From assembly GCF_000379125.1 (NCBI RefSeq), contig NZ_KB900627.1:174993-219811 (forward strand): 44,819 nucleotides of DNA. Reading direction: 5' to 3'. Origin of the DNA: Methylosinus sp. LW4. Lineage in GTDB: Bacteria > Pseudomonadota > Alphaproteobacteria > Rhizobiales > Beijerinckiaceae. Every line of letters starts with the position of its first letter. The first letter of the stretch is position 1. Below, one piece after another: positions 15,625 to 25,656 of this stretch. The position numbers were made by a program, and so were the translations under genes. The notes under the pieces were generated by a model. That model made no database searches, had not been told where the DNA came from, and saw only the letters and a list, made by a program, of their open reading frames with translations.

Positions 15625-15785
15625 CGCGCCGGACGCTACGACCTCGGCGATCGGCAGACCGGCAAGGTCGAGCGGGCGATCGTTAAGGGCCCGTGGGCTC
15701 GAACACGACACGCGTCACCGGCGTGGCGCCCGTCCATTTGATCAAGGCCTTTCGGCCGGGCTTGTCATGGGCGAAACGGCGCGCG
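15625..15785 (-). pseudogene. IS110-family transposase remnant
   Basis: On the minus strand 15785-15683 reads RRFAHDKPGRKALIKWTGAT and ends VVFEPTGP-stop, like the N-terminal region of IS110-type DEDD transposases. A frame shift then continues as ALNDRPLDLAGLPIAEV, matching the next family block. The rest is missing. Within the gene-poor stretch 15155-15624 I see only a CGAGGCT/AGCCTCG hairpin at 15553-15567. Confidence 0.5.
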
Positions 15786-15900
15786 GCTCCATCAACGAAA
15801 AGCGAACTTTCTCTCTCGCGTGGTCGCGCCCGAAGAACAGCGTCTCGTTGAGCATGCGGCCGTTGCAGCTTTCACAGAAGCCGTTCTGCATTGGTTTGCC
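15784..15900 (-). pseudogene. IS3-family integrase (OrfB) remnant
   Basis: The minus strand reads GKPMQNGFCESCNGRMLNET and then LFFGRDHAREK. That is the C-terminal part of the DDE integrase of IS3-type elements, which normally reads GKP.QNGFVESFNGR.R.ELLNE. Both Cys residues are substitutions in conserved positions. It abuts the IS110 remnant, so this is a site of repeated insertion and decay. 15901-16126 holds no recognisable gene. Confidence 0.65.
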
Positions 15901-16126
15901 TCGCAATCGTCAATGATGACTGCCTCCAGCCTGCGACACCGCGAAGTCTGGCGAACATTGCTTTCGCCGCGCCATCGCGTGATCGCCGCAAAATCGCCTC
16001 CAGAGACCTCGATCAGCAGTTGTTGACTTTGTACATAAAACTAGTCAGCATATGGCGTCGTAAAACCCCGATTGCCTTCGTCGTCCCAAGCACGGCGCAG
16101 ACGTATGACGCATCGAGGCGCCAAGA

Positions 16127-18121
16127 ATGTTCAGTCCCTCTTCCTTCTCGGTCGTCGTCACCGACAAGAAAAGGACCGGGATCGAGACCGTCTCCGGGGT
16201 GACCGCCGGGGCGACGAGCCGGGCTTCGGCGATGGTGTTCGAGGATCCCGTCTCCTTGAGGCTCAAAGCCGATCTGCATCGCATCGCTCCGAGCGACGCG
16301 ACCGTCTTGATCATTGGCGAGACGGGAACAGGAAAGGAACTCGTCGCTCGTTATATTCACGCCAATAGCGCGCGCAAGGACGGCCCCTTCCTCGCGGTCA
16401 ATTGCGGCGCGTTCAGCGAGACGCTCGTCGAGGCGGAGCTGTTCGGCCATGAGAAGGGCGCCTTCACCGGCGCCGCCCGAAGCGAGACCGGATGGTTCGA
16501 GGCCGCGCACGGGGGGACGCTGCTGCTCGACGAAATCGGCGACCTTCCGGCCGCCATGCAGGTGAAGCTGTTGCGCGTCTTGCAGGAGCGCGAGATTGTG
16601 CGCGTCGGCTCGCGCAAGGCGCGGCCGATCGACGTGAGGCTGATCGCCGCCACCAATGTGAATCTCGAGGCGGCGGTGGCCGCCAAGAGCTTCCGCAAGG
16701 ACCTCTTTTATCGCCTCAACATAGCGACGGTGAATCTCGCGCCGCTGCGCGCGCGCCGCGGCGACATCGAGCCGCTCGCCAATTATTTCCTCCGCCTCTT
16801 TGGCGCAAAGCTCGGCCGGCCGATGCCCGTGCTCGCGCCCGAGGCCATCGCCAAGCTGACGAGCTATCATTGGCCCGGCAATATTCGCGAGCTCGAAAAT
16901 GTTCTGCACAATGCGCTGCTGTTGACGCAAGACGACCGCATCGCCGAGGTGCCGATCGTCGAGGCTTTCGATCCGCCTCTTGCGGAAGAGAACGGCGATT
17001 TCGAGACACGTCTGCGCAGCCTGCTCGACACGGCCATCACGCGCGGTGAGAAGAACCTCTTCGACCGCGTTATGCGCTCTCTTGTCTCGGTCGCGCTCGA
17101 TTTCGAGCGCGGCAATCAGGTGCGCACGGCGGAACGGCTCGGCATGAGCCGCAATGAATTGCGTACGCGCCTCGGCCATATGGGCGTCATCGCTCCGCGT
17201 AAGAAGAGTTCCGCGGAGAACGACGAGAAGGAGCAGCGGCAGCCCGCACGAAGCGCGCCGAACGTCGTTCGGCTCGGCTTTCAGAAATTCGGCACGCTCG
17301 CGGCCTTGCAGGCGATAGGCTCGCTCGATGAACGTCTTCGGCCGTTCGGTTATCGCGCCGAATGGAGGGAGTTCAGCGCCGGCCCCGCCGTTCTCGACGC
17401 GATCGGCCGCGGCGAAATCGACCTAGGCGTCACCGGCGAGGCTGCGACTGTTTTCGCTCTCGCCATGGGCGTTTCCTTCTTCTACGTCGGCTATGAATCG
17501 CCCGCCCCGACAGATGTCGCCCTCGTCGTCGCCGATCCCCGGCTTCGCTCGATCGACGATCTGAAAGGCAAACGCGTCGCTTTCAGCCGATGGTCGAACG
17601 CCGACCATTTTCTGACGACCGCGCTCAATATCCGGGGGCTGTCGCGCGGCGACATCGAGCCCGTCTATGTCCCTCCGACGCTCGATTTGCTCGAGGATTT
17701 GCGCGACGGGACAATCGACGCATGGGCGATTTGGGAGCCGCTTCTGAGCGCCGCCCGCATGGGAAGCAAAGCGCATGTGCTTCTCGATGGCGCCGGTTTC
17801 GTCGAGAACCATCAGTTCTACGTGGCGCGCCGACACTTCGCCTGCGGCCAGCCGCAGATCGTCGACGCGATCCTAGCGGAAATTCGCATGCTCGGCGCGA
17901 CGCCGCGCGAGCGCGCCGAAGCGGAACTCGGCGCCGTCGCGCGATGCCTGCATCTCGATCGGCAGGTGGCGCGGCATTATCTCCACCGACTCGATTTCGA
18001 GCCCAAGCCGCTCGATCGCGACGTCATCGGCAAGCAGCAATCGATCGCGGATGGCTATTTCGCCGCGGGCCAATTGCCCGCGCGAGTCTCGATCGAAGGC
18101 GCAGTTTGGCGAGGCGCCTGA
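16127..18121 (+). CDS. Sigma-54 activator fused to an SsuA-like sulfonate-binding domain
   Basis: 664 residues, cytoplasmic (no signal peptide). Residues about 37-285 form a sigma-54 AAA+ domain: Walker A GETGTGKE 64-71, GAFTGA 111-116 (sigma-54 contact), Walker B LLLDE 132-136. A Fis-type helix-turn-helix lies at about 332-350 (RTAERLGMSRNELRTRLGHM). After a charged linker (356-378), residues 379-660 form a complete SsuA/NMT1-type binding domain, with VRLGFQKFGT, GEIDLGVTGEA, VGYESPAPTD, LKGKRVAF and DAWAIWEP blocks. Like SfnR it lacks an N-terminal receiver or GAF domain. It lies convergent with the SfnG operon, beside genes it very probably controls. The C-terminal placement of a periplasmic-type ligand domain on an activator is unusual and suggests direct sensing of a sulfonate or sulfone. 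The start at 16127 is uncertain by a few codons. Confidence 0.93.
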   Translation: MFSPSSFSVVVTDKKRTGIETVSGVTAGATSRASAMVFEDPVSLRLKADLHRIAPSDATVLIIGETGTGKELVARYIHANSARKDGPFLAVNCGAFSETLVEAELFGHEKGAFTGAARSETGWFEAAHGGTLLLDEIGDLPAAMQVKLLRVLQEREIVRVGSRKARPIDVRLIAATNVNLEAAVAAKSFRKDLFYRLNIATVNLAPLRARRGDIEPLANYFLRLFGAKLGRPMPVLAPEAIAKLTSYHWPGNIRELENVLHNALLLTQDDRIAEVPIVEAFDPPLAEENGDFETRLRSLLDTAITRGEKNLFDRVMRSLVSVALDFERGNQVRTAERLGMSRNELRTRLGHMGVIAPRKKSSAENDEKEQRQPARSAPNVVRLGFQKFGTLAALQAIGSLDERLRPFGYRAEWREFSAGPAVLDAIGRGEIDLGVTGEAATVFALAMGVSFFYVGYESPAPTDVALVVADPRLRSIDDLKGKRVAFSRWSNADHFLTTALNIRGLSRGDIEPVYVPPTLDLLEDLRDGTIDAWAIWEPLLSAARMGSKAHVLLDGAGFVENHQFYVARRHFACGQPQIVDAILAEIRMLGATPRERAEAELGAVARCLHLDRQVARHYLHRLDFEPKPLDRDVIGKQQSIADGYFAAGQLPARVSIEGAVWRGA

Positions 18122-18140: not shown

Positions 18141-18974
18141 TCAGTATTTTGCGAGGATCGCCTGCGCCGACGCCCCGCCGAAACGCAGAGTGACTCCGAC
18201 GCTCGCAAGCCAAGGATCGATGTTCGACCTCACCCGGACATAGATGTTCTGATTGAGCGCGGAATTATAGATCGTCGCATAAGCAGTCGGCTCTGCCACG
18301 ATGCGCTTCAAATCGACGTTCACGCCGATATTGGGCGTGATCATGTAGTCGAAGCCGATTTGTCCCGCGACGCCGATCGACGTTCCGATCTGAAGCGCGC
18401 GCACCGAATCGAAGCCGGTGAGGCCGAGAGTTGTGACGAGAGGCGTCCAGCTATTGCCGGGGCTATAGCCATAGGGAACCGCCCAAGTGACGCCAACTCC
18501 GACATAGGGCTGGAAGGCGCCGAATTGCGTGAAATGATACTGGGCGAGCAATGATACGGGCAGAAGATTCGTGGCGCCGACCGGAATGCCGGCGAGCGAG
18601 CCCGTTGCGGTCAAAATATGCCGCGTATAGCCGGCGATCGTCTCGACGGCGAAATGCTCGTCGAAATAATAGCTGAGATCGATCTCGGGAATGATCGAAG
18701 TGGAGGTATGAACGCCCGCGCCGAAAATCTGGCCGCCTGGAACGCCGGCGGCTATTCCCGTTATGGCCGGCACAGTGCCGAAGCGATCGAAAACAGAAAA
18801 GCCGCCATCGGGAACGATCGCCGTCGCACGCAGTCTGATTTGGAAAGGCTGATAATCGACGGCTGTGACCGTCGCCGGCTGCGGCTGCGCTCGTGATGGC
18901 AGATCGGCGGCGGAGGCGGCGTTCGCGCAGACGAGCGCGCTCGCCGCGCCGATGAGACGGTGCGGGAGGTTCAT
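18141..18974 (-). CDS. OmpW-family outer-membrane protein
   Basis: 277 residues from ATG 18974, with an AGGAAAG ribosome site; a longer frame to 19184 would run into the preceding gene. The signal peptide ends near Ala22-23 (ANAASA|ADLP). The mature part has OmpW blocks: a segment starting RLRATAIVPDGG, then PEIDLSYYFDEHFAVE, LLAQYHF and PYVGVGVTW, and a C-terminal beta strand. OmpW proteins are eight-stranded barrels proposed to pass small hydrophobic molecules. It is the last gene of the sfnG operon, so it may admit dimethyl sulfone or related small organosulfur compounds. That role is inferred. Confidence 0.88.
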   Translation of the reverse strand: MNLPHRLIGAASALVCANAASAADLPSRAQPQPATVTAVDYQPFQIRLRATAIVPDGGFSVFDRFGTVPAITGIAAGVPGGQIFGAGVHTSTSIIPEIDLSYYFDEHFAVETIAGYTRHILTATGSLAGIPVGATNLLPVSLLAQYHFTQFGAFQPYVGVGVTWAVPYGYSPGNSWTPLVTTLGLTGFDSVRALQIGTSIGVAGQIGFDYMITPNIGVNVDLKRIVAEPTAYATIYNSALNQNIYVRVRSNIDPWLASVGVTLRFGGASAQAILAKY

Positions 18975-19029: not shown

Positions 19030-20214
19030 CTATTCGCCGCCTTCGTAGAACAGCTCGAGCGGCAGACCGACCGCCGTCTTGCCGATCCAATCGCGCGCGA
19101 TAATGTTCGACGGCCCCATGCCGATGCCGGCGCGGGCGTCGCGGAAATAGCGCTCGATCGCGCCTTTCTTATAGCCGTAGCCACCCGTGACGGTGAGCGC
19201 GGCTGCGGCCGAGAGATTGGCGGTCTCGGAGGCGTGAACCTTGAATTCGGTGAGCGCGATCAACAGCTCGGCTTGCGGCTTGCCTTCGAACCACAGAGCG
19301 TCGAGTCCGGCCGCGAGCTCGCGCCGCCAGGGTCCGAGCGATTCGATCAGCACTTTCGGCTTGGCGAGTTCCTGACGGACCGCCTGATAGTCGGCGAGAC
19401 GCTTGCTCGTGTCCTTGTGAATCGAGTTCTTGATATGACCCACGGCGGCGTCGTGTGCGCCGCGTGCGACGCCTTCCCACACGGCGCCGAGGCCGATCAG
19501 ATAGACCGGCGAGACGCCGTTGTAGATAATTTCCTTGCCTTGATTCTCCTCGCCGAGGCGATTGTTCCGCGCCACCTTCACGCCCTCGTAGCGGATGGGA
19601 CCGGAATGATTTCCGCGCACGCCGAGCGCGTTCCAAGGCCCGGGCGTGATGCCAGGCGATTTTCCGTCGACGATGAAGAAGGAAATGTCGGATTGGTCAC
19701 GCGCATCCGGCGTACGCGTCTGAGTTATGTAGTAATCCGCCTTGCCCGAGGAGGTCGTGAAGGACTTCTCGGCGTTGACGATATAATCATCGCCGTCGCG
19801 CGACGCTTGCGAGAAATTGTACCACCAATGACCGCCAGAGGCGCGCTCACTGGTCGAATAGGTGCCGAGAAGATATTTGCCGTCCTGCGGCTTCAGCCAG
19901 CGCAGCTTTTGGTCTGGCGTGCCATAGAGATTTATCGTCTGCGCGGCGCCGACATGCATCACATAGACGAGGCCTGTCGAGGCGTCCTTCTGTCCGATAC
20001 GATACGCGGCTTCCGCGAAAGCCGTATGATCGAGACCGAGCCCGCCATATTCCGGCGAGACTAGCGCGCGCGTCCATCCGGCTTCGGCGAGCGCATGGAG
20101 ATTTTCGACGGGAAACAGCGATTGCTCGTCGTTGCGTTCCGCATTGGCGACAATCACGGTCTCAATGACGCGATCGAGCCGCTCGAACGCCTCTGCTCTG
20201 TTGACTTCCGACAT
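19030..20214 (-). CDS. Acyl-CoA-dehydrogenase-fold flavoprotein of the sulfone operon
   Basis: 394 residues with the three-part acyl-CoA dehydrogenase fold: N-terminal helices containing LAEAGWTRALVSPEYGGLGL, a middle beta domain with GTYSTSERASGGHWW and ISFFIVDGK, and a C-terminal helical domain with TVTGGYGYKKGAIERYFRDA. In sulfur-assimilation loci such proteins include SfnB and flavin-dependent monooxygenases. This one is not close to the MsuC/DszC type at 23898. It sits 69 bp after sfnG and 55 bp before ompW, so all three form one operon. The reaction is unknown. Confidence 0.85.
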   Translation of the reverse strand: MSEVNRAEAFERLDRVIETVIVANAERNDEQSLFPVENLHALAEAGWTRALVSPEYGGLGLDHTAFAEAAYRIGQKDASTGLVYVMHVGAAQTINLYGTPDQKLRWLKPQDGKYLLGTYSTSERASGGHWWYNFSQASRDGDDYIVNAEKSFTTSSGKADYYITQTRTPDARDQSDISFFIVDGKSPGITPGPWNALGVRGNHSGPIRYEGVKVARNNRLGEENQGKEIIYNGVSPVYLIGLGAVWEGVARGAHDAAVGHIKNSIHKDTSKRLADYQAVRQELAKPKVLIESLGPWRRELAAGLDALWFEGKPQAELLIALTEFKVHASETANLSAAAALTVTGGYGYKKGAIERYFRDARAGIGMGPSNIIARDWIGKTAVGLPLELFYEGGE

Positions 20215-20283: not shown

Positions 20284-21396
20284 TCAAGCCGCCGCGCGGG
20301 CTTCCTCGGCTTCGAGCGCGCGCACGAGCGGAATGACGCGCTGGCCAAAAAACTCGACTTCCTCCTGGAAATGCAGGAAGCCGAGCAGAATGAGATCGAC
20401 GCCGACCGCTTTGAGTTCCAAGATTCGACGGGCGACCTCTTCCGGGGCGCCGATGAGATTGGTCTTAAAGCCGTCGTTATATTGAACGAGATCCTCGAAG
20501 CTCGATTTCGCCCAATTGCCTTCGCGCTCTGGAGACGCCGCGCCGGCGTTCTGTACCTCGTGATGAAATGCGCGAACCGCATCCGGGTCGGCGTTCGCCA
20601 GAATGTCGTTCAATGCGCCGCGAGCTTCATCGGCTGTATCGCGCACGATGGCGAAGGCGTTGACGCCGATCTTCACTTCGTGACCGCTCTGCGCGGCCTT
20701 GGCGCGAATGTCGTCGACTTGCTTGCGAACGCCATCCACGGTGTTTCCATTGGTAAAATACCAGTCGGACACGCGCGCCGCCATGTCGCGCGCTGCGCGG
20801 GAGCTGCCGCCCTGGAATATCTCGGGCGGCCTGACGGGCTTGGGCCTTAGCGTGTAGTCGCGGAACCGGTAGAAGTCTCCCGCGAAATTGAAATTGTCTT
20901 GCGACCACACGCCGCGCAGTACACGGATAAACTCCTCCGAGCGGCGATAGCGCTCGTCGTGATCGAGCCAATGTTCGCCGATCGCCTGGAACTCGCCGCG
21001 GAACCATCCAGAGACGATGTTCACCGCGAGCCGCCCGCCCGTATACCAGCTGATCGATGCGATCTGCTTGGCGACGACGGCCGGATGCCATGGGCCGGGA
21101 AGGATCGCGGCGATCACATTGAGCTTCTCGGTCGCCGCCAGCAGCGCATGAGAAAAGCTCACCGACTCGTGCTGATATTCGGCGCCATAGCCGGCGGTGA
21201 AGCGAATTTGCGTCAAGGCATATTCAAATCCCGACGCTTCGGCGATCTGCGCGAGCTTACGATTATAGTCGATATCCCAGCTCGTGCGCTGCTCCACCTT
21301 GCTGATGACGAGCCCGCCCGAGACGTTCGGAACCCAATAGGCGAATTTGATCGCCTCTGATTTTTGACACGCCGAAGGCGAAGAAGCGCCGCTCAT
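20284..21396 (-). CDS. sfnG: FMNH2-dependent dimethylsulfone monooxygenase SfnG
   Basis: 370 residues, bacterial-luciferase-like TIM barrel. It oxidises dimethyl sulfone to methanesulfinate and formaldehyde using reduced FMN. Blocks I recall from SfnG are present nearly unchanged: KFAYWVPNVSGGLVISK, QIRFTAGYGAEYQHESVS, VIAAILPGPWHPA, FQGGSSRAARDMAARVSDWY and NWAKSSFEDLVQYNDGFKTN. The start ATG 21396 has a GGGAGACAAGG ribosome site; an upstream in-frame extension to 21483 would cover the promoter. It heads the minus-strand operon and has a good sigma-54 promoter 70 bp upstream. The reduced flavin is probably supplied by the FMN reductase at 25117. Confidence 0.95.
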   Translation of the reverse strand: MSGASSPSACQKSEAIKFAYWVPNVSGGLVISKVEQRTSWDIDYNRKLAQIAEASGFEYALTQIRFTAGYGAEYQHESVSFSHALLAATEKLNVIAAILPGPWHPAVVAKQIASISWYTGGRLAVNIVSGWFRGEFQAIGEHWLDHDERYRRSEEFIRVLRGVWSQDNFNFAGDFYRFRDYTLRPKPVRPPEIFQGGSSRAARDMAARVSDWYFTNGNTVDGVRKQVDDIRAKAAQSGHEVKIGVNAFAIVRDTADEARGALNDILANADPDAVRAFHHEVQNAGAASPEREGNWAKSSFEDLVQYNDGFKTNLIGAPEEVARRILELKAVGVDLILLGFLHFQEEVEFFGQRVIPLVRALEAEEARAAA

Positions 21397-21466
21397 CCTT
21401 GTCTCCCTTGTGGCCCGCGCGCAGTCCCCGATTGTCACGCGACCGCGCATCGATCGCCTGAGAATG

Positions 21467-21482
21467 AGCACGGCGCGTGCCA
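21467..21482 (-). promoter_or_regulatory. Sigma-54 (-24/-12) promoter of sfnG
   Basis: The minus strand reads TGGCACGcgccGTGCT, matching TGGCACG-N4-TTGCW at 11 of 12 informative positions, with the GG and GC exactly 10 bases apart. It lies about 70 bp upstream of the sfnG start. The nearest activator-site centre (21540.5) is 60 bp upstream of the GG element. Confidence 0.8.
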
Positions 21483-21532: not shown

Positions 21533-21579
21533 TATTGCATTTGCAACAGCCGACGTTCGGCGCTGCTGCAAATGCAGCA
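21533..21579. promoter_or_regulatory. Paired palindromic activator sites (UAS pair A)
   Basis: Site A1 is 21533-21548 (TATTGCATTTGCAACA, core palindrome TTGCA-TT-TGCAA). Site A2 is 21564-21579 (TGCTGCAAATGCAGCA, perfect 7-bp arms around AA). Centres are 31 bp apart, about three helical turns, so both face the same side of the helix. They lie between the divergent sfnG and amidohydrolase promoters. With pair B (22550-22596) they give the consensus TGYTGCNNATGCARCA. They are very probably bound by the sigma-54 activator at 16127. Confidence 0.75.
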
Positions 21580-21671: not shown

Positions 21672-22547
21672 ATGGCATCATCGAACCGTCCGCGGCATAT
21701 CGTCGATATGCGAGCGCGGCCGTCATTCCTTCACTCGTTCTTCGGAGCAGAACCGGGATCGCCCGACTTCGAAACAGTCCGCTGGATGAATCGCCGCCTC
21801 GGTTCGAAGGACGTCGACCATTTCACGCGAGCGCCCGATCTTTCGTCCTTTCATCGGGAGCTCGATGCGGCTGGGATCGACATTGCGCTCATGGTGGGAC
21901 GCAGCACGCCGAGCGTACGGATTTCCAATGATCTGCTCGCGACGCTCTCTTGCTCGTCGCAAGGGCGCTTGCTCGGCGTCGGTTCGGTCGACCCTCAGTT
22001 CTTCACAGGCCGACGTGCGGCGGAAGAGACGGAGCGCTGCCTGAACGAGCTGAAGCTCGTGGCCGTCAATGTCGATCCCGCCTTCTTGGCGGAGCCGATT
22101 TCCCATGACGACGAGACGCTGTTTCCCATCTATGAAATCTGCGCAGATCGCGGCGCGCCGATCTTCATGATGTCGGGTCCGACGACGCCGGACCTACGGC
22201 GCAATGACCCGCTGGCGGTCGATCGTGTGGCGCGCGCCTTTCCAACTCTGCCAATCGTCTGCTGTCATGCCTTCTACCCGCAAATCGATGAAATGATCGC
22301 CGTCGCGTTTCGCCACGAGAATGTCTTCGTGTCGCCGGACATGTATTTCTTCGCGCCGGGAGGCCTGCGATACGCGGATGCCGCGAGGGGATTTCTCGCA
22401 GACCAATTGCTGTTCGGCTCGTCATATCCGTTTCGTCCACTCGATCAGAGTGTCGCGGACCTCCTTCGCCTCGGCTTGGACGAGAATGCGATCGAGAAGG
22501 TCGCATGGCGCAACGCCGCGCATCTGCTACGGCGCGATTTGGCGTGA
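21672..22547 (+). CDS. Amidohydrolase-2-fold protein lacking usual metal ligands
   Basis: 291 residues from ATG 21672; a longer upstream frame would cover the activator sites. The overall pattern follows amidohydrolase family 2: N-terminal VDMRARP, FHRELDAAGIDIALMVGR, then VDPAFLAEP, PIVCCHAFYPQIDEMI and a C-terminal LLFGSSYPFRP. The usual N-terminal HxH is RAR here, and the usual Asp in FGSDYP is Ser, so the canonical metal site seems absent while the central His is kept. It is the first gene after activator pair A and may be read together with ssuD. Function unknown; a non-metal or decarboxylase-like role is possible. Confidence 0.8.
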   Translation: MASSNRPRHIVDMRARPSFLHSFFGAEPGSPDFETVRWMNRRLGSKDVDHFTRAPDLSSFHRELDAAGIDIALMVGRSTPSVRISNDLLATLSCSSQGRLLGVGSVDPQFFTGRRAAEETERCLNELKLVAVNVDPAFLAEPISHDDETLFPIYEICADRGAPIFMMSGPTTPDLRRNDPLAVDRVARAFPTLPIVCCHAFYPQIDEMIAVAFRHENVFVSPDMYFFAPGGLRYADAARGFLADQLLFGSSYPFRPLDQSVADLLRLGLDENAIEKVAWRNAAHLLRRDLA

Positions 22548-22549
22548 GC

Positions 22550-22596
22550 TGTTGCGCATGCCGCAGAGCCGGCCCGGAATTGCTTCGGATGCAACA
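22550..22596. promoter_or_regulatory. Paired activator sites (UAS pair B)
   Basis: Site B1 is 22550-22565 (TGTTGCGCATGCCGCA) and site B2 is 22581-22596 (TGCTTCGGATGCAACA). Each matches TGYTGCNNATGCARCA at all but one or two of the defined positions. Centres are 31 bp apart, identical to pair A. B1 begins three bases after the amidohydrolase stop. B2 is 50 bp upstream of the -24 element of the ssuD promoter. Confidence 0.7.
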
Positions 22597-22636
22597 GCAG
22601 ACGGACAAAATGACTAAAGAATCGCGGCGGAGCGAT

Positions 22637-22652
22637 TGGCCCGTCTCTTGCG
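22637..22652 (+). promoter_or_regulatory. Sigma-54 (-24/-12) promoter of the ssuD operon
   Basis: TGGCCCGtctcTTGCG matches TGGCACG-N4-TTGCW at 10 of 12 informative positions with exact GG-N10-GC spacing. It lies 61 bp upstream of the ssuD start and downstream of activator pair B. Confidence 0.75.
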
Positions 22653-22713
22653 GCCGGGAAATTCAAAGAAATCTCCTATTGCCGCGCTCAGACCGGCGAA
22701 CAGGGATCGGATC

Positions 22714-23883
22714 ATGGAAATCTTGTGGTACATTCCGACACATGGCGACTCGCGATATCTCGGCTCCGAGGAGGGAGCTCGGACGGCGACATTCGACTAT
22801 CTTCGGCAGATAGCGGTCGCAACGGACAGTCTCGGCTATTACGGCGTTCTCATTCCGACCGGACGCTCCTGCGAAGATCCGTGGATCGTCGCGGCGAGCT
22901 TGATCGAATCGACGAAGACTCTGCGCTTTCTCGTGGCCCTTCGGCCGGGCCTGGTGCAGCCGGCGTTGGCGGCGCGCATGACGGCGAGCCTCGATCGTCT
23001 GTCGCGAGGACGGCTGCTGATCAACCTCGTCGCTGGAGGCGACGCGAGCGAGCTCGCCGGCGACGGCCTGTTTCTCGATCACGCAGCCCGCTACGACGTC
23101 TCGGCCGAGTTCGTGCGCGTCTGGGATGCGCTTCTTCGCGCGAGCCATGCGGACGAGAGCGTCGATTTTCACGGCGCGCATTTCGACATAGAAAAGGGTA
23201 AGCTGCTCTTTCCTCCGGTGCAGAGCCCGAGGCCGCCACTCTATTTCGGCGGCTCCTCAGGGCCTGCGCATGATCTCGCGGCGCGCGCCGTCGACGCTTA
23301 TCTGACATGGGGAGAGCCGCCCTCCGCGGTCGCCGAGAAGATCGCGGATGTGCGGCGGCGAGCGGCGGCGTTCGGACGCGCGCCACGTTTTGGCGTGCGG
23401 CTGCATGTGATCGTGCGCGAGACCGAGGACGAAGCTTGGGCGGCGGCGGATTCCCTCATCAGCCGCTTGGACGACGACGCGATCGCCGACGCACAGAGAA
23501 CCTTCGCAAAAATGGATTCGATCGGCCAGCAGAGAATGCTCGAATTGCGCAAAGGCCGCGGACGCACGCGCGCAGATCTCGAAATAAGCCCCAATCTCTG
23601 GGCCGGCGTCGGACTGACGCGCGGCGGCGCGGGAACGGCGCTCGTCGGCGATCCCGCGCAAGTCGAGGCGCGTTTGCGCGAATATGCGGCGCTCGGAGTC
23701 GACAGCTTCATTCTCTCGGGCTATCCGCATCTGGAGGAAGCCTATCGCTTCGCCGAGCTCATGTTTCCCCGCCTCGGCGTCGAGGCGCGAGGAACCTTGC
23801 CGGGGCAAAAAATCACAGGCCCATTCGGAAGCGTCGTCGCGAAGCCGGGCAACTCGCCCTCATCATCATCCGCCGCCGCCTGA
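22714..23883 (+). CDS. ssuD: FMNH2-dependent alkanesulfonate/methanesulfonate monooxygenase (SsuD/MsuD)
   Basis: 389 residues, luciferase-like. It cleaves the C-S bond of sulfonates to sulfite and an aldehyde (formaldehyde from methanesulfonate) using FMNH2 and oxygen. Start ATG 22714 is set by family similarity from [11 protein letters not shown]. Typical blocks: [59 protein letters not shown] and [17 protein letters not shown]. SsuD and MsuD cannot be told apart here by eye; the neighbouring MsuC-like and FMN-reductase genes favour methanesulfonate. First gene of a three-gene operon. Confidence 0.93.
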
Positions 23884-23897
23884 GGAGCCGGAAACCC

Positions 23898-25067
23898 ATG
23901 TCCGAACGCATCTTCGATCCGTCCAACGTGACGCCAGCAGCGCTCCCACGACTGCTCGCGGCGCTCGCCGCCACCGCGGTGGAACGGGACAAGCGCGGCG
24001 GAACCGCCAAGCGCGAGCGCGATCTCATTCGCGAGAGTGGCTTGCTGAAGCTGTCCATCCCGCGCGAATTGGGCGGCGCGGGCGCCGATTGGATCGTCAT
24101 CCTCGACGTCGTACGGCGAATTGCGGCCGTCGACAGCTCGCTCGCGCATCTCTTCGCCTTTCATCATTTGATGATTGCAACCGTGCAATTTTTCGGGACC
24201 AGCCAACAAGCGCGGCGCGCGATGGAGAAGACCGCGCAGGAGGATTGCTTCTGGGGCAACGCCGTCAATCCGAAGGATGCACGATTGCGACTGCGGCGTG
24301 ATGGCGAATATTATCGCCTCGAGGGCGTCAAGAGCTTTTGCTCGGGCGCGAGCGATTCGGACATGCTCGTCGTCTCCGCGCTCGACGAGCAGCAAAAATT
24401 GAAGATAGCTGCGATTCCGACCCGGCGCGGGGGGATTCGAATTCACGAGGATTGGGATAATATGGGGCAGCGCCAAACCGACAGCGGCTCCGTATCTTTC
24501 GACGAAGTCGTCGTGAGCGACGAGGAGCTGCTCGTCTCGCCTGGGCCGCTCGGATCGCCTTTCGCCGCCCTACGGCCCTGTCTCGCACAGCTCATCCTCG
24601 TCTCCATCTATGCAGGACTGGCGCGCGGCGCCCTCGACGCCTCTGTCGCCTATGTGCGGGAACTGCCGAGCGATGGCGCGGCGCGCATCGGAAGCGATCC
24701 ATTCACTCTGCATACGGCAGGCGAGCTCTTTGCGCAGGTCTGCGCGGCGGAGGCGCTCCTCGATCGCGCCACACATTCCTTTCAGCAGGGCTGGACGCGT
24801 GGAGACGCGATCACGCCGCAAGAACGCGGCTCTATCGCGATCGATGTCGCGATCGCCAAAGCCGTGAGCGCGCGCGCGGCTCTCGATGTCGGCAGCCGCA
24901 TGTTCGACATCATGGGCGCGCGCGCCACGACTGCCCGCGCCGGGCTCGACCGCTTCTGGCGCAATGCGCGAACACATACGCTTCACGATCCTCTCGATCA
25001 CAAGCTGAAGGAGCTCGGGGAGTTCGCGCTGAACGGCCTCTACCCGACGCCTTCCTTCTATTCTTGA
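23898..25067 (+). CDS. MsuC/DszC-like flavin-dependent monooxygenase (acyl-CoA dehydrogenase fold)
   Basis: 389 residues, starting 14 bp after ssuD. The acyl-CoA dehydrogenase fold carries monooxygenase-type blocks: LIRESGLLKLSIPRELGG, DNMGQRQTDSGSVSFDEV, SGASDSDMLVV, and a C-terminal DIMGARATT with LDRFWRNARTHTLHDP. DszC, SfnC and methanesulfinate monooxygenase MsuC share this type. Between ssuD and an FMN reductase, a methanesulfinate-to-methanesulfonate step would link SfnG to SsuD/MsuD. That assignment is inferred from context and needs enzymatic evidence; the symbol is left blank for that reason. Confidence 0.85.
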   Translation: MSERIFDPSNVTPAALPRLLAALAATAVERDKRGGTAKRERDLIRESGLLKLSIPRELGGAGADWIVILDVVRRIAAVDSSLAHLFAFHHLMIATVQFFGTSQQARRAMEKTAQEDCFWGNAVNPKDARLRLRRDGEYYRLEGVKSFCSGASDSDMLVVSALDEQQKLKIAAIPTRRGGIRIHEDWDNMGQRQTDSGSVSFDEVVVSDEELLVSPGPLGSPFAALRPCLAQLILVSIYAGLARGALDASVAYVRELPSDGAARIGSDPFTLHTAGELFAQVCAAEALLDRATHSFQQGWTRGDAITPQERGSIAIDVAIAKAVSARAALDVGSRMFDIMGARATTARAGLDRFWRNARTHTLHDPLDHKLKELGEFALNGLYPTPSFYS

Positions 25068-25116: not shown

Positions 25117-25656
25117 ATGTCCACGATGAAGCTCGTCGCCGTATCCGGCGGCCTCGGACACCCGTCACGCGCCGCCGCGCTGGCGAAAGCCATTACCGAG
25201 GCAATCGCCGCAAGGATGCCGATCGACGCCCATGCGATCTCGGTCGCCGATCTCGTCCAAGATCTCGCCGGCGTCATCTCCGCGAAGAGCGCTCCTGCAT
25301 CGGTGAGCGAAGCCGTGACACGAATCGAGACCGCGGATGCGCTGGTCGTGACGACGCCGGTCTATCGCGGTTCCTACACAGGCCTCTTCAAGCATCTCTT
25401 CGATCTCGTTCATCACGAGGCGCTGATCGGCAAGCCGGTTCTGCTCGCGGCGACAGGCGGCAGCGATCGACATTCATTAATGATCGATCACCAATTGCGG
25501 CCCTTGTTCGCATTTTTCCAGTCGCTGACTTTACCGCTCGGCGTCTACGCCAACGATAGCGACTTCTCGAATTATGAGGTGAGTAGCGACGCGTTGAAGG
25601 AGCGCATCCAACTCGCGGTCGAGAGTGGAATCGGCTATTTGGAGCTGCGAGGTTAG
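25117..25656 (+). CDS. msuE: NAD(P)H-dependent FMN reductase (MsuE/SsuE family)
   Basis: 179 residues from ATG 25117, which has an AGGAG ribosome site at 25106-25110; an ATG at 25099 is in frame but lies upstream of that site. Flavodoxin-like fold: VAVSGGLGHPSR phosphate-binding loop, TPVYRGSYTGLFKHLFDLV and LLAATGGSDRHSLMIDHQLRPLF (the last within about 140-165) are typical of SsuE/MsuE. It supplies FMNH2 to SfnG, SsuD/MsuD and the MsuC-like enzyme. Last gene of the ssuD operon, 49 bp after the previous stop. Confidence 0.92.
   Translation: MSTMKLVAVSGGLGHPSRAAALAKAITEAIAARMPIDAHAISVADLVQDLAGVISAKSAPASVSEAVTRIETADALVVTTPVYRGSYTGLFKHLFDLVHHEALIGKPVLLAATGGSDRHSLMIDHQLRPLFAFFQSLTLPLGVYANDSDFSNYEVSSDALKERIQLAVESGIGYLELRG

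Follow-up and report, generated by a model that had tools for sequence, protein, structure and literature searches.

An activator gene ending in an SsuA-type domain

The window analysed here is a 44,819-nucleotide stretch of the Methylosinus sp. LW4 genome (contig NZ_KB900627.1, positions 174,993 to 219,811), and our subject within it is a gene that joins an SfnR-like sigma-54 activator to a C-terminal domain of the SsuA type, SsuA being the periplasmic alkanesulfonate-binding protein of SsuABC. The gene occupies a single open reading frame (ORF) of 664 codons (16127-18121, plus strand), uninterrupted and preceded by an in-frame TGA seven codons 5' of its ATG, and is laid out as follows.

16127 to 18121, plus strand: fusion gene, SfnR-like sigma-54 activator with C-terminal SsuA domain (664 aa)
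16241 to 16948, plus strand: AAA+ domain with lid, residues 39-274 (Walker A GETGTGKE at 64-71, GAFTGA at 111-116)
17090 to 17173, plus strand: Fis-type helix-turn-helix (HTH), Pfam HTH_8, residues 322-349
17195 to 17260, plus strand: linker, residues 357-378, charged, fast-evolving and without a hydrophobic stretch
17261 to 18118, plus strand: SsuA-type ligand-binding domain, residues 379-664 (contact equivalents Q386, G419, G437 and N491; pocket W536)

Pfam assigned Sigma54_activat to residues 39-202 (230 bits), AAA_lid_14 to 208-274, HTH_8 to 322-349 (22.5 bits, barely over its cut-off of 22) and NMT1 to 422-550, while NCBIfam matched PRK11553 (SsuA) at 374-662 (E 7.7e-53, 179.5 bits) and TIGR01728 at 382-662 (146 bits). 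Against PDB sequences, the C-terminal part matched the SsuA proteins of E. coli (2x26, E 1.6e-45) and X. citri (3e4r, E 1.4e-42). An AlphaFold model built from a 30-row alignment (A3) is confident in the SsuA domain (block pLDDT, the per-residue confidence, 82-93 except at 591-600 and the final residues), of mixed confidence in the AAA+ part and below 50 pLDDT in the linker (355-377); its best PDB structural matches are SsuA with MES and MOPS (3ksj and 3ksx, target TM-scores 0.90 and 0.88), followed by further SsuA entries and then by AAA+ domains of sigma-54 activators. Residues 379-664 are a full SsuA fold placed behind AAA+ domain, HTH and short linker. The original prediction of a sigma-54 activator with a complete SsuA-like domain is borne out by these Pfam, NCBIfam and PDB sequence and structure matches, and its residues 379-660 do resemble SsuA in profile searches.

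The roughly 35 residues ahead of the AAA+ domain, whose match begins at residue 39, matched no family and hold no N-terminal regulatory domain; with no hydrophobic stretch ahead of the SsuA part either, the predicted lack of both signal peptide and N-terminal sensor holds. Residues 1-35 (16127-16231) are nonetheless strongly conserved among four genomes of the genus, with a ratio of nonsynonymous to synonymous substitution rates (dN/dS) of at most 0.115, and below 0.07 in 5 of 6 pairs. Farther upstream, a stretch on the minus strand (15690-15910) seems by eye to resemble a decayed fragment of an IS3-type transposase gene. Across nine aligned fusions, Walker A, Walker B and GAFTGA of the AAA+ domain are invariant.

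Recurrence and ancestry of the fused layout

The full-length fusion is present in five of ten genomes of the genus; four of these copies are 92-100% identical to it and the fifth 56%. It was not seen in the 90 other sampled genomes of the family or order, where each best match had an E-value of 7e-79 or weaker. A protein search returned eight fusions together with a relative lacking the SsuA part (P0009), and a scan of genome contigs placed both parts in one ORF in at least 10 loci (10 of 80 among the matches listed), of which 3 belong to Methylocystaceae, 2 to Azospirillum, 3 to Klebsiella, 1 to Pseudocitrobacter and 1 to Enterobacter. The plasmid collection gave 291 matching records, 73 of which cover 80% or more of the query at a single place. 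Those listed come from Methylocystis iwaonis, Azospirillum sp. B510, many Pantoea, Klebsiella pneumoniae and Chimaeribacter, among others, and are mostly annotated either as "sigma-54-dependent Fis family transcriptional regulator" or as "aliphatic sulfonate ABC transporter substrate-binding protein". The K. pneumoniae fusion adjoins xni and fuc genes on a 692-kb record labelled as a plasmid, and one M. iwaonis plasmid copy (NZ_AP027143.1, 304378-307212) is split in two by an IS5-family transposase gene. None of 5426 E. coli genomes held 80% of the Klebsiella fusion gene, the matches there being to the AAA+ part.

Searching with the most divergent member (P0008) yielded 391 proteins, the best 120 of which include entries from Sorangium, Polyangiales and Myxococcaceae; GAFTGA-like and SsuA motifs stand together in 93 of the 119 relatives fetched (P0010-P0128), some of the others being short or partial. 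More than 100 database members share the fused layout under automatic names. In random samples, counting the genome studied here, the full fusion occurs in 2 of 385 genomes of the class and 3 of 398 of the phylum, and in the order of genome G629 in 3 of 295, all of one genus. The survey of the architecture that the original prediction called for accordingly finds it in Azospirillum, Pantoea and Klebsiella as well as in the genus itself, and also in a second lineage that contains Myxococcota. We did not find the architecture described in the open-access titles and abstract openings searched, let alone in many published activators, although the search terms were narrow and subscription journals and preprints lay mostly outside their scope.

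In a tree of the substrate-binding protein (SBP) domain, all 55 fused SsuA domains fall on one side of a branch from 26 stand-alone SsuA (support 97/95), with the stand-alone side represented by 26 of 74 rows (18 hand-picked, 8 random) and the P0008 lineage by 25 of 105 full-length rows plus P0008 itself; an earlier tree, with 30 fused rows and 74 stand-alone ones, divided them likewise (80/92). In the activator tree (55 fused against 21 other rows), a single clade of all fused proteins is rejected (approximately unbiased test, p-AU 0.0009; 0.0001 in the first activator tree) because the P0008 lineage takes in the stand-alone SfnR-type proteins (91/92) and the other lineage takes in P0009 (100/98); each fused lineage taken alone is not rejected as a clade. 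The stand-alone ssuA genes that adjoin the Pantoea agglomerans and G629 fusions were considered as donors of the fused domain and set aside, both being placed elsewhere in the SBP tree.

Either one fusion with later loss of the SsuA part in SfnR-type proteins, or two fusions from related SsuA, would give this pattern, and since several tree rows are long-branched we keep both histories. A bolder and tentative proposal, which we hold to be possible but doubtful, is that a C-terminal clamshell of the periplasmic-binding-protein type gates a bacterial enhancer-binding protein (bEBP) on cytoplasmic organosulfonates, as an additional mode of bEBP control, and that the sensor-less SfnR of Pseudomonas descends from a fused ancestor by loss of its sensor; the grouping of the SsuA domains in one tree and the rejected clade in the other bear on this descent.

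Pocket residues, selection and export of the fused domain

In X. citri SsuA, the published account has the sulfonate head held by Gln36, Gly68, Gly86 and Ser141, with Trp185 facing the pocket (PMC3839906). Four of these five residues are kept in the fused domain and Ser141 is replaced by Asn; the five equivalents (Q386, G419, G437, N491 and W536) are invariant in nine fusions, none of them selected by motif. Among Pseudomonadota fusions the Gln, both Gly and the Trp are identical in 29 of 29 and the Ser141 position is Asn in 29 of 29, as it is in 66 of 74 stand-alone SsuA, so that the fusion shares the change to Asn with ordinary SsuA. The stand-alone rows and the majority of these fusions were selected with motifs that contain Trp185 (partly also Gly86), and the set includes several near-copies. 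The P0008 lineage, whose 26 rows were not motif-selected, keeps the Gln36 equivalent in 21 and the Trp185 equivalent in 23. The fused domain likely retains the ability to bind a ligand, to judge from these residues.

Which ligand it would bind is where the first rival comes in, namely that the domain senses sulfur sufficiency, binding sulfate or another inorganic anion and holding the activator off when sulfate is plentiful. The sulfonate head in SsuA is gripped largely by main-chain groups, which could fit other anions (PMC3839906), but the same account has X. citri SsuA stabilised by MOPS, MES, CHES and HEPES and not by sulfate, thiosulfate or taurine (PMC3839906), and all nine aligned fusions share the pocket Trp; we regard a sulfate sensor as rather unlikely.

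Selection speaks to a second rival, that the domain is no longer a sensor and serves in oligomerisation, stability or docking, as might be suspected from the stand-alone SfnR-type relatives that lack it and yet group with one fused lineage. Over six pairs from four genomes, dN/dS is 0.045-0.10 in the SsuA part, 0.09-0.23 in the AAA+ part and 0.26-0.51 in the linker. The SsuA part is under purifying selection and at least as constrained as the AAA+ part, and with pocket residues kept across classes a purely structural role appears improbable.

A third rival, two products from one gene, would have an internal start release a separate periplasmic SsuA besides the regulator, and some fusion loci, including the window, do lack a stand-alone ssuA adjoining the fusion. 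We scored export signals as a 12-residue stretch above hydropathy 1.5 within the 30 residues preceding the domain: such a stretch precedes 0 of 55 fused domains (highest value 1.26). Of the 74 stand-alone SsuA, 4 had too little preceding sequence for the test, and all 70 others have one (lowest value 1.67). Ordinary ssuA genes also exist elsewhere in this genome and beside the fusion at two other loci. About 230 kb off on the same contig lie an ssuA-ssuD pair followed by a 579-aa ORF whose second half is SsuB-like (locus L042, 8620-12553) and, also about 230 kb away, a second ssuA beside an arylsulfatase-like ORF (L042, 16843-19901); in Pantoea agglomerans and G629 a stand-alone ssuA directly follows the fusion. 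The fused domain appears to lack a signal peptide and to have lost export, and two products are very improbable.

Finally, an assembly or sequencing artefact, such as the frameshift that might have joined two neighbouring genes, has nothing for it but single records, the split M. iwaonis copy and a two-piece K. pneumoniae match, and its probability is negligible: the gene is a single frame, the parts before and after the joint are both under purifying selection, and recurrence of the layout without internal stops in separate genomes, plasmid records and metagenome records already refutes it.

A candidate intracellular switch for organosulfur genes

Downstream of the fusion gene, the window carries a cluster of C-S bond-cleaving and associated genes.

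18141 to 18974, minus strand: OmpW-family outer membrane protein (named after the Methylocystis iwaonis annotation; start by eye)
19030 to 20214, minus strand: acyl-CoA-dehydrogenase-type flavoprotein, FadE16-like (domain and family scans)
20284 to 21396, minus strand: sfnG, dimethylsulfone monooxygenase (TIGR04021, 604 bits)
21467 to 21482, minus strand: predicted sigma-54-like promoter TGGCACGCGCCGTGCT, 70 bp upstream of sfnG
21533 to 21548: palindromic upstream site TATTGCATTTGCAACA, 1 mismatch, 51 bp from the sfnG promoter
21564 to 21579: palindromic upstream site TGCTGCAAATGCAGCA, 0 mismatches, 31 bp from the first site
21672 to 22547, plus strand: amidohydrolase-family protein (start by eye)
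22550 to 22565: degenerate upstream site TGTTGCGCATGCCGCA, 3 mismatches
22581 to 22596: degenerate upstream site TGCTTCGGATGCAACA, 3 mismatches, 31 bp from its partner
22637 to 22652, plus strand: predicted sigma-54-like promoter TGGCCCGTCTCTTGCG, 61 bp upstream of ssuD
22714 to 23883, plus strand: ssuD, FMNH2-dependent alkanesulfonate monooxygenase (TIGR03565, 579 bits)
23898 to 25067, plus strand: SfnB/DszC-like flavin monooxygenase (start by eye)
25117 to 25656, plus strand: msuE-type FMN reductase (TIGR03566, over cut-off)

The longest ORFs of sfnG (20284-21480) and ssuD (22636-23883) begin too far upstream, where they would run into the sigma-54-like sites; judged by family models and by start conservation, the ATG of sfnG is at 21396, not 21480, and that of ssuD at 22714. 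Of the original claim that no ssuA, ssuB or ssuC lies nearby, the first part stands, the fusion being the sole SsuA-family match in the window, while for ssuB and ssuC no search covered the window in full.

Across loci, ssuD lies near the fusion in 15 of 17 compared (13 of 15 distinct, L038/L046 and L039/L047 being the same loci counted twice, and L042, the separate ssuA locus of the same genome, being left out) and in 7 of 7 annotated plasmid fusion loci. Two loci have no ssuD nearby: L044 has lost or lacks most of the cluster, and in L048 the scaffold breaks off shortly after the fusion. Alphaproteobacterial fusion loci carry sfnG and msuE as well; among enteric loci, where ssuD is divergent from the fusion gene, only Chimaeribacter has sfnG nearby. 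Transport genes at the fusion loci (L124, L125, L126, L130 and L128) differ from host to host, with branched-chain-type ATP-binding cassette (ABC) genes in Azospirillum, an OmpW protein in Methylocystis, and methionine-type ABC genes in Pantoea sp. SO10, P. dispersa and Klebsiella; these differences may reflect different sulfur substrates.

Promoter sites were scored against a sigma-54 consensus of 12 positions (maximum 16, GG and GC required). Sites of at least 14 stand within 200 bp upstream of 26 of 39 sfnG, ssuD and msuE genes, in 21 of 22 loci (near-copies L035, L046 and L047 excluded; L044 the single locus without one), against 88 of 6600 random 200-bp stretches from the same loci; the loci are related to each other, so these counts are not independent events. 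When upstream regions were aligned, for 12 gammaproteobacterial loci and for four from the genus, one and the same palindrome was spotted by eye in both sets. With at most one mismatch to this palindrome, TGYTGCAWWTGCRRCA, we count 30 sites where 0.5 are expected (23 loci, 451 kb), in 20 of the 23 loci. Among the seven loci outside the choice of the palindrome (L038, L039, L044, L045, L048, L124 and L128), five have such a site, L048 has one with 2 mismatches and L044 has none. At enteric loci the palindromes lie between ssuD and the divergent fusion gene. Eight places in the genome studied here match the palindrome with at most one mismatch, two of them being the sfnG pair of the window, and the reversed pattern has 0 matches there. 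A wider regulon was considered and dropped, the other six matches having neither a second site within 1.5 kb nor a sigma-54-like site of at least 14 within 1 kb.

The reading that we favour, and consider probable, is that the fusion protein is an SfnR-like one-component activator that turns on C-S bond-cleaving genes and senses sulfonates in the cytoplasm through its C-terminal domain. That it acts as an activator is very likely; that an organosulfonate ligand gates it is somewhat less assured, though still probable. The SfnR-like AAA+ domain would remodel sigma-54 RNA polymerase while the Fis-type HTH contacts the paired palindromes upstream of sfnG and ssuD, which the fusion protein may bind. 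The cytoplasmic SsuA domain would close on an organosulfonate, perhaps methanesulfonate from the SfnG route or an imported alkanesulfonate, and, once closed, set the activity of the AAA+ ring, presumably in the positive sense, so that the C-S bond-cleaving monooxygenases would be produced when their substrate is present. The one-component organosulfur sensor first proposed gains partial support, with ligand binding and control of the AAA+ ring predicted from sequence features. The suggestion of a captured cytoplasmic effector fares similarly: a real, selected fusion without an export signal does stand beside organosulfur genes, but it is not a one-off capture.

Several observations weigh against this sulfonate-sensor reading. 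The SsuA scores fall under the curated cut-offs (299 bits for PRK11553, 163.5 bits for TIGR01728), and the linker is disordered in the AlphaFold model (predicted TM-score, pTM, 0.47), so that the model predicts no SsuA-AAA+ contact. Random genome samples seldom contain the fusion, and the P0008 lineage has lost the Gln36 equivalent in 5 of 26 rows and the Trp185 equivalent in 3. Across the whole window sigma-54-like sites are no commoner than in shuffles (16 versus 26 expected at 13 or above, 3 versus 3.4 at 14 or above), so only their positions speak for them. Of the 23 loci used for counting the palindrome, 16 had already served for choosing it by eye; its sites at the window's ssuD promoter are degenerate (3 mismatches each), and the fusion gene itself is preceded by no better match than one with 4 mismatches. 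Ligand binding, DNA binding and control of expression are predictions from sequence.

Among known systems the closest is SfnR of Pseudomonas, the activator of dimethyl sulfone genes, which is described as having no sensor and which paper titles connect with CysB-controlled expression and activation of sfnFG. The AAA+ and HTH parts of the fusion are about 49-56% identical to stand-alone proteins, most of them about 370-400 aa long, and some of these relatives adjoin genes like the window's ssuD and SfnB/DszC-like gene; the SfnR-type label is our assumption, drawn from gene context and general knowledge, the 120 listed relatives carrying generic names. The stand-alone proteins, however, stop soon after the HTH where the fusion adds a 286-aa SsuA domain, and the palindrome, at up to 2 mismatches, was not seen in 18 stand-alone SfnR-type loci (about 4 kb each) or in four longer stretches. 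One report places sfnR with the msu operon (PMC8234197). To SsuA itself the fused domain is alike in fold, length and sulfonate-contact residues, and differs in apparently having no signal peptide, in being joined to a DNA-binding activator and in keeping to its own side of the SBP tree branch.

The fusion also resembles bEBPs with ligand-binding domains (DmpR, XylR, NorR and NifA), ligand-controlled AAA+ activators of sigma-54 promoters (PMC7175178). In the groups described in the accessible part of that review, the regulatory domain is N-terminal, of PAS, V4R, ACT or GAF type, and none behind the HTH is mentioned (PMC7175178), which makes the domain order of the fusion unusual: here a periplasmic-binding-protein fold is placed behind the HTH. 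What is expected of a bEBP is otherwise present, including an AAA+ domain with GAFTGA, a Fis-type HTH, and predicted sigma-54 promoters with upstream sites at likely targets. LysR-type regulators such as CysB also use a binding-protein-like fold as a cytoplasmic effector domain, likewise in sulfur control, but they bind DNA through a different domain and have no AAA+ ATPase.

In aerobic soils, sulfonates and sulfate esters account for the greater part of the available sulfur (PMC3839906). The recurrence of the fused layout across several bacterial groups suggests a recurring, undescribed intracellular switch for organic sulfur. The SsuA fusion family offers a testable candidate for a direct sensor, with a candidate regulon complete with promoters and upstream sites, and may provide a part for sulfonate biosensors.

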